Source of the DNA: Acetatifactor sp.
Lineage (GTDB): Bacteria > Bacillota > Clostridia > Lachnospirales > Lachnospiraceae
DNA: 48,241 bases
NCBI GenBank assembly: GCA_018385425.1
Contig: JAHBAA010000034.1
Span: forward strand, 1 to 48,241
Reading direction: 5' to 3'
Shown here piece by piece: positions 15,312 through 16,245 of the stretch. Made by a program: the position numbers and the translations under genes. The notes beneath the pieces are model-generated. The model made no database searches, was not told the origin of the DNA, and saw nothing but the letters and a program-made list of their open reading frames with translations. The number at the start of each line of letters is the position of its first letter. Position 1 is the first letter of the stretch.

Positions 15312-15731
15312 ATGGCTGATAACAATGGAAAAGAGAACTTTCAGGGCGTAGTGGAGGCATTGCTGAAAGGAATGGACACAGTATTGTCCACAAAGACAGT
15401 GGTAGGTGAGGCTACTCATATTGGGGATACCATCATATTGCCTCTTGTTGATGTTTCTTTCGGCGTAGGTGCCGGAGCCAGCAACAACGGCGAAAAGTCT
15501 TCCGCTTCCGGAGTAGGAGGTTTGGGAGGAAAGATGACGCCCAGTGCAGTCCTTGTGATTAAGGACGGAGAGACCAAGCTTGTAAACATCAAGAATCAGG
15601 ACGCTGTGACGAAGGTCATTGATCTGATTCCCGATCTGGTGAACAAGCTGTCAAAGAACGGCAAGAAGAATCAGGATCAGACGGTCAGCGATTCCGCTGC
15701 AATTGATGCTGCATTTCCGGAAGAGCAATAG
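15312..15731 (+). CDS. gerW: GerW (YtfJ) family sporulation protein
   Basis: A 139-residue soluble protein of the GerW/YtfJ family. It shows VEALLKGMDTVLSTKTVVGE near the N-terminus, then DTIILPLVDVSFGVGAGAS, a Gly-rich loop (GVGGLGGK) and an SAVLVIKDGETKLVNI strand, the typical family order. In B. subtilis YtfJ is a spore protein needed for normal germination. It follows the DUF2953 gene by 3 bp. Its presence supports a spore-forming ancestry for the organism, though the family also occurs in non-spore-formers. Confidence 0.93.
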   Translation: MADNNGKENFQGVVEALLKGMDTVLSTKTVVGEATHIGDTIILPLVDVSFGVGAGASNNGEKSSASGVGGLGGKMTPSAVLVIKDGETKLVNIKNQDAVTKVIDLIPDLVNKLSKNGKKNQDQTVSDSAAIDAAFPEEQ

Positions 15732-15741
15732 GCTGCAGAAA

Positions 15742-15770
15742 GAATAGACCACATATTTTTGGCATACAAT
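15742..15770 (+). promoter_or_regulatory. Sigma-E/sigma-K-like sporulation promoter
   Basis: GAATAGA (15742-15748), 14 bp, CATACAAT (15763-15770). The -10 matches the B. subtilis sigma-E consensus CATACAHT completely, and also fits sigma-K CATANNNTA; the -35 matches 5 of 7 bases of KMATATT. It precedes a 46-codon membrane ORF next to gerW. The assignment is by pattern only. Confidence 0.5.
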
Positions 15771-15826
15771 AGAGCGAGGAATCATTTGCCTGTAGAGTGT
15801 TATGCGAAGAATATGTGGTCTTTTTG
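15746..15826 (+). terminator. Long-stem hairpin after gerW, split by an internal promoter
   Basis: AGACCACATATT (15746-15757) pairs perfectly with AATATGTGGTCT (15810-15821), and the pairing extends inward with few mismatches. It is followed by TTTT and then CAATTTTTC. The loop is about 40 nt. It probably stops read-through from gerW. Transcripts begun at the internal promoter (start expected near 15777) would lack the left arm. Confidence 0.55.
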
Positions 15827-15942
15827 CAATTTTTCTTGCGTTGGGGATGCTGTTGAAAATAGCAATCGATTCGATGCTGATCACTTATATTGTGATATTG
15901 ATCCTTCTGTTTCTTGGGTGCCTGTGCTGTTATGAGAACTAG
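15802..15942 (+). CDS. Small membrane protein, 46 aa (putative)
   Basis: A short ORF missing from the ORF track: MRRICGLFAIFLALG, then a central IDS, then a second hydrophobic run ending LGCLCCYEN. Two hydrophobic segments separated by a short polar turn, with Cys at both ends, suggest a small double-spanning membrane peptide. Small Cys-containing membrane proteins of this type are common in clostridia, but I cannot name a family. The only in-frame start is ATG 15802, directly after an in-frame TAG. The ribosome binding site is weak (AGAG), which lowers confidence. The sporulation-type promoter upstream and gerW next door suggest mother-cell expression. Confidence 0.5.
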   Translation: MRRICGLFAIFLALGMLLKIAIDSMLITYIVILILLFLGCLCCYEN

Positions 15943-16008: not shown

Positions 16009-16040
16009 AAATCCCTCCCCGAAATCGAGGAGGGATTTTT
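16009..16040. terminator. Bidirectional terminator between the small ORF and rpmB
   Basis: AAATCCCTCC (16009-16018) pairs with GGAGGGATTT (16029-16038). On the plus strand it ends in TTTTT; on the minus strand the stem is followed by ATTTTTT. It lies 20 bp beyond the rpmB stop, so it is the rpmB terminator and can also stop plus-strand transcripts. Confidence 0.85.
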
Positions 16041-16059: not shown

Positions 16060-16245
16060 TTAAGCACGCTCAACCTTACCAGACTTCAGACATCCGGTGC
16101 AGACATGCATTCTCTTAGAGCCGCCGTTAACCTTGCACTTTACGCTCTTTACATTAGAATTCCAAATTGCATTGCTTCTTCTATGAGAATGGCTTACGTT
16201 GTTACCAAAATGAACGCCCTTGCCACAAACATCACACTTAGCCAT
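16060..16245 (-). CDS. rpmB: 50S ribosomal protein L28
   Basis: A 61-residue basic protein of the large ribosomal subunit. MAKCDVCGKGVHFGNNVSHS opens the protein and CTGCLKSGKV closes it. The two CxxC pairs (residues 4 and 7; 49 and 52) mark the zinc-binding C+ form of L28. A strong AGGAGGTG lies 7 bp upstream of the start on the minus strand. The gene is divergent from the asp23-fakA-recG cluster, the same neighbourhood as rpmB-yloU-yloV-recG in Bacillus. Confidence 0.97.
   Translation of the reverse strand: MAKCDVCGKGVHFGNNVSHSHRRSNAIWNSNVKSVKCKVNGGSKRMHVCTGCLKSGKVERA

Follow-up and report, generated by a model that had tools for sequence, protein, structure and literature searches.

The 46-codon open reading frame (ORF) that follows gerW in the window (the whole analyzed stretch, 48,241 nucleotides of contig JAHBAA010000034.1 from Acetatifactor sp.) probably is a sigma-E-controlled gene whose promoter lies within a hairpin. 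Through termination, start-codon occlusion or both, this hairpin would silence read-through RNA; we hold this reading with moderate confidence. The conservation of the ORF and of its promoter, their link with sporulation, the difference in folding between the two RNAs, and the excess and covariation of hairpins at the ORF, at spoIVA and at spoIIID have been computed here. In vivo, such silencing would keep a mother-cell product from being made in gerW-transcribing cells.

The hairpin of the gerW-ORF junction

The features of the locus are listed in Table 1. The product of gerW also matches NCBIfam TIGR02874 (E 1.4e-12), under the curated cut-off of that family. The left arm of the hairpin occurs only in RNA that reads through from the gerW side, and in this RNA the -10 element and the preceding G pair with the start-codon region. 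The terminator between the ORF and rpmB also ends in TTTTT on the + strand, and it is the clean intrinsic terminator of this neighborhood.

Table 1. Features of the gerW-rpmB region, in window coordinates
Feature	Position	Strand	Basis and remarks
gerW (ytfJ)	15312..15731	+	upstream of the ORF, co-directional; Pfam Spore_YtfJ PF09579, E 3.9e-24
-35 element GAATAGA of the predicted sigma-E-type promoter	15742..15748	+	overlaps the start of the left arm; family-wide PWM; position and type as in spoIVA promoters
Hairpin left arm AGACCACATATT	15746..15757	+	exact complement of 15810-15821; fold z -5.23
-10 element CATACAAT	15763..15770	+	EM motif over 194 loci; sits in the hairpin loop
Predicted transcription start (A)	15777	+	leaders with A here: 96% among the first 53, 80% among 194
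46-codon ORF; product a small membrane protein, two TM helices predicted	15802..15942	+	homologs, pN/pS, AlphaFold; ATG 15802, stop 15940-15942
Hairpin right arm AATATGTGGTCT	15810..15821	+	codons 3-7 of the 46-codon ORF; T-rich codons next
Intrinsic terminator that separates the ORF from rpmB	16009..16038	.	13-bp stem, loop of 4, T-tail; listed on the - strand
rpmB (L28)	16060-16245		convergent to the 46-codon ORF

The perfect 12-bp stem of the original prediction is an exact inverted repeat (15746-15757 with 15810-15821); it has 5 GC pairs and a loop of 52 nt, with UUUU and then GCAA downstream. When folded in silico, the read-through RNA (15732-15845) has a minimum free energy (MFE) of -41.0 kcal/mol, compared with -23.6 ± 3.3 for shuffled sequences (z -5.23), and none of 200 shuffles is as good. 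The RNA from the predicted start at 15777, which lacks the left arm, loses this fold (MFE -8.8, z +1.46), as had been anticipated. The start codon has an unpaired probability of 0.02 in read-through RNA versus 0.27-0.44 without the left arm, and a start codon that is hidden in the long RNA and freed in the short RNA, as seen here in silico, is the hallmark of the sigG and T4 gene e systems. The pairing between the promoter side and the ORF side in the window is the strongest among 160 loci; the stem is known from one genome of the species.

The role of this stem in termination is less straightforward than was originally proposed. A T-tract is present past the stem (TTTTGCAATTTTT), but it is short and interrupted, and its letters belong to codons for Leu, Phe and Ile in the first membrane segment. 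With a 52-nt loop as well, this copy is not a textbook terminator. In the window, start-codon occlusion is at least as plausible as termination, given the long loop and the interrupted U-tract. A less likely reading is that occlusion acts by itself and that termination has no part in this copy, as has been proposed for B. subtilis sigG and shown for T4 gene e; the 98% pairing of the start codon in the read-through RNA, the long loop and the weak U-tract agree with such a mode of action, and the evidence from other loci, given below, points both ways.

As a general terminator of gerW the hairpin was rejected, a terminator being found after gerW in only 2% of 43 gerW loci that lack the ORF (at -14 kcal).

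Start-spanning hairpins in relatives of the ORF

In the related genomes, gerW was located in 100 of 117, and 80 named loci were added; the relatives of the ORF were first found by their position after gerW. A hairpin was counted when the predicted start separates its two arms, with the left one upstream and the right one downstream and ending at a T-tract, and its energy is at or below -16 kcal/mol. Such hairpins are found at 19 of 178 ORF loci, versus 3.3 ± 1.9 when the left arms are swapped between loci, 3.4 ± 1.8 when the left arms are dinucleotide-shuffled and 5.0 ± 1.9 when the shuffling keeps the -10 element. All 19 are among the 152 loci with a co-directional gerW; none occurs at the 15 convergent loci, which are too few to tell. 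Whole-window folds with forced pairing give a weak contrast (17 observed at or below -16 versus 6-11) because inner structure adds noise, and duplexes of the arms only gave a cleaner one. When duplex energies are calculated without the T-tract rule, the mean z is small for the ORF (-0.39), compared with -2.39 for spoIVA and -1.72 for spoIIID.

In the strong cases both arms have changed with the pairing kept, as seen for the arms AAAAGGCCGCATA/TATGCGGCCTTTT of L217 and ATCAGGTTGCATA/TGTGCGGCCTGAT of L262. The right arms lie before the ATG in L113, L126 and L252, where the terminator has its textbook form, and at codons 4-8 in L001, L176, L193, L217 and L254. Mostly they end at codon 7-8, abutting T-rich codons, and more T residues follow the strong own stems than the swapped stems (3.67 versus 2.85, p 0.007). 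This preference, together with the canonical terminators of L113, L126, L252, spoIVA and spoIIID, argues against occlusion as the sole mode of action, whereas some relatives (L030), in which the region just before the ATG is paired and there is no T-tract, are in agreement with it.

About 90% of the relatives, including most of the same genus, have the ORF and the promoter but no strong start-spanning hairpin. Gating is not a general property of the ORF gene, and the insulation is therefore not essential. The absence of the hairpin from most relatives also fits a different explanation, according to which the ORF and its sigma-E promoter are real but the hairpin is incidental here, or a mere 3'-end structure of gerW, and gates nothing; in agreement with this, termination does not seem to be generally needed at gerW loci without the ORF, which rarely terminate. 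We consider an incidental hairpin rather unlikely, as the stem of the window beats all shuffles, and as several genera, and two further sigma-E genes, show the excess and the covariation again.

The same architecture at spoIVA and spoIIID

These two genes have T-tract-ended, start-spanning stems of at most -16 kcal/mol at 25 of 36 (spoIVA, 4.2 expected) and 11 of 26 loci (spoIIID, 3.8 expected). For spoIIIAA there is no terminator version (1 of 30 versus 0.2 expected), and its pairing without T-tracts beats all shuffles at 9 of 30 loci. In these three sets the starts and start codons were assigned by motif, and single cases may be wrong. The architecture at spoIVA was noticed while this gene was serving as a promoter control.

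In the spoIVA leaders (L263-L302), a C-rich block between the -35 and -10 elements, just before the -10, pairs with the Shine-Dalgarno (SD) sequence, which is followed by a T-rich run and then the ATG, as in CCCCCTTG-CATATACTA...CAAGGGGG-TATTTTTATG. The spoIVA of the window genome itself (G000:C57:13280-13790) has GCCTCC/GGAGGT followed by TTTTT. The arms differ by genus while the pairing stays (L292, GAAAACCTCCTG/CAGGAGGTTTTT; L293, AAACCCGCGTTTT/AAAACGCGGGTTT), and in most Lachnospiraceae genera the spoIVA leader is predicted to form a start-spanning terminator or an anti-SD hairpin. The spoIIID leaders (L332-L361) have the promoter-in-hairpin arrangement as well, for example AAACCTCTGCATA...TATGCAGAGGTTTTTG in L344, which is a textbook terminator, and here too the arms differ while the pairing stays (L336, AACCCCTCAGAA/TTCTGAGGGGTT; L344, AAACCTCTGCATA/TATGCAGAGGTTT). 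The terminator form is thus canonical in spoIVA, in spoIIID and at several ORF loci. Outside Lachnospirales, the T-tract version is found at none of 30 spoIVA loci at -12 kcal, and the anti-SD pairing of spoIVA without T-tracts there is the remaining point in favor of occlusion only. By eye, this pairing without a T-tract was seen in L428, L432, L437, L439 and L441, where the partner of the distant SD is a C-rich block close to the putative -10 (for example AACCTTTTCCCC / GGGGAGGGAAAAGGT in L439).

Two further observations concern the integrity of these genes. In G132, G136, G138, G142 and G159, spoIIID is divided into an N-terminal fragment of about residues 1-42 and a C-terminal one of about residues 34-79. 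Three of these genomes carry both fragments on a single contig: G136 (L453, G136:C12:135700-148700; separated by about 12 kb), G159 (L452, G159:C158:6700-10900; about 3.5 kb) and G132. An ORF that by eye resembles a large serine recombinase lies beside the junction in L452 and L453, and the split may reflect a skin-like intervening element. The spoIIID search gave no match at all in the window genome. A break near residue 400 divides spoIVA in three genomes from other families of the class (G622:C1, G556:C2, G521:C10); the two pieces share a contig and a strand and are separated by roughly 5-40 kb, which looks like a skin-type interruption.

A mother-cell-type promoter

Expectation maximization (EM) on 194 distinct upstream regions gives the motif K(-21).A(-19)W(-18) followed by GCATATAATA, in which the positions are counted relative to the C of CATA. 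The distance from GCATATAATA to the ATG is usually 35-45 nt (median 39), and an A is preferred 14 nt past the C of CATA, at the expected start. Within 140 nt upstream, CATANNNTA occurs in 128 of the 194 regions, compared with 10.6 in shuffles. The sigma-E-type promoter of the original prediction, GAATAGA-N14-CATACAAT, is conserved family-wide with the appropriate -35/-10 spacing, and its start is predicted at 15777. In Lachnospiraceae the promoter of spoIVA, which is a sigma-E gene, reads KMATAA-N14-GCATATAyT, with a spacing equal to that of the ORF promoter.

The consensus sequences of sigma-E and sigma-K have the -10 in common, and the -10 CATANNNTA also fits sigma-K. It is nevertheless improbable that the promoter is used by sigma-K, or by both mother-cell sigma factors, instead of sigma-E: the AC of the sigma-K -35 is found at -19/-18 in 15 of 160 loci and at -20/-19 in 4 (about 6 expected), and K.AW.A at N14 agrees with spoIVA. 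The promoter sequences point to sigma-E use with a start at 15777.

Conservation of the 46-codon ORF among spore formers

A short ORF with the consensus MKKIIGLIAFFIAIGMLLMLITHNRLVGLIIIALLLFVGYNCFCGD recurs immediately 3' of gerW in the relatives; gerW is just upstream on the same strand at 184 of 214 ORF loci and convergent downstream at 19. With one genome per genus, homologs are found in 163 of 250 Lachnospiraceae and SpoIVA in 166. Both are present in 159 genera, only the ORF in 4, only SpoIVA in 7 and neither in 80 (Fisher p 1.5e-51, without phylogenetic correction), and this near-restriction to spore formers is as expected for a member of the sigma-E regulon. The profile alignments include the window protein, so that its own score is not independent.

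The two-span membrane ORF of the original prediction is real: the frame is conserved in the 163 genera, as is the promoter in the relatives, and pN/pS is 0.26 in the ORF frame versus 0.89 and 2.29 in the shifted frames. M1, G6, G15, M16 and G39 are invariant, and AlphaFold predicts two helices, 3-21 and 25-45 (mean pLDDT 79). The short length of the ORF and its divergence in this species (22-43% identity to relatives) could suggest a chance frame in hydrophobic, T-rich DNA, but this reading, to which we give practically no credence, is refuted by the conservation of the frame, with its invariant residues and a pN/pS that behaves oppositely in the other frames. The ORF is a real, conserved gene of spore formers that was previously unnamed.

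No Pfam or NCBIfam family scores above its curated cut-off for the window protein or its relatives. Distant homologs occur in other families of Lachnospirales, away from gerW in the stretches examined; outside the order, none was found elsewhere in the class at the sensitivity used (3 matches in 196, all of the same order). One such distant homolog (L320:1405-1485, family f5, ORF-oriented), which has no gerW in its flank, has TGCCCCCTTCATACAATAAAACATGAGGGGGCATTTTT just before the start and the -10 inside a textbook terminator hairpin. In loci L050-L109, mostly of Butyrivibrio, gerW is kept and the downstream ORF is absent, which suggests a role of gerW outside spore formation there.

Discussion

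In the proposed mechanism, the ORF would be a mother-cell sporulation gene under sigma-E that encodes a two-helix membrane microprotein. Read-through RNA from gerW would contain both arms, so that it would end where the ORF begins, have its start codon hidden, or both; RNA begun at 15777 would lack the left arm and be freely transcribed and translated. In Bacillus, GerW is forespore-specific and under sigma-F (PMC4366231), and the barrier may therefore lie between the compartments rather than against vegetative RNA. The likely benefit would be that the forespore does not make a membrane protein of the mother cell, or that this protein is not made ahead of sigma-E, and not only that vegetative read-through is blocked. 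The insulation of the ORF, as originally proposed, is partly supported in that the promoter-in-hairpin recurs with covarying arms, but most close relatives lack the hairpin, and the vegetative target has been modified to one that may concern forespore and mother cell.

In B. subtilis, a large hairpin is proposed to block the translation of spoIIG read-through RNA at sigG, and transcripts begun at the promoter of sigG itself are unable to form it (PMC5942855). The ORF resembles sigG in being a sporulation gene with its own predicted promoter and a hairpin only in RNA that comes from upstream; unlike sigG, which belongs to the forespore, has a sigma-F/sigma-G promoter and carries a hairpin described as translational, it is an unrelated gene with a mother-cell-type promoter, and many of its hairpins end at T-tracts. 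In phage T4, the late promoter of gene e, and also of soc, 49 and I-TevI, lies in the 5' strand of a hairpin, so that early long RNAs are translationally silenced and late short RNAs are not (PMC3014915). The ORF shares a promoter, here a predicted one, within the 5' side of the hairpin and, in silico, a long RNA with a hidden start codon; the T4 system, in contrast, serves the timing of phage lysis by occlusion only, without a terminator. As in an ordinary intrinsic terminator with a downstream promoter, a stem and a T-tract lie between two genes, but here the predicted promoter and start of the ORF are between the arms, so only read-through RNA can form the stem. A non-exhaustive search of the literature gave no direct match for promoters nested in terminators; what appears to be new is the coupling to T-tracts and terminators, the involvement of mother-cell promoters, and the fact that the design recurs at mother-cell genes.

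We are evenly divided over a wider reading, in which many sigma-E mother-cell genes of Lachnospiraceae (spoIVA, spoIIID and the ORF) would have their promoters nested in start-spanning terminator or anti-SD hairpins, as a widespread design that is maintained convergently, is refractory to read-through RNA and allows expression only in the right compartment and at the right time, and in which the microprotein would be a new sporulation protein that is nearly universal in the family. Sporulation genes must stay silent in the wrong compartment even though genes in bacteria lie close together and read-through is frequent, and a promoter that removes one arm of a terminator would be a protein-free way for a gene to answer only to its own sigma factor. 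Since the design recurs at spoIVA and spoIIID, the idea can be examined in laboratory spore formers, and it offers a sequence signature for mother-cell promoters; an unnamed conserved microprotein also joins the known sporulation genes of a family that is prominent in the gut.
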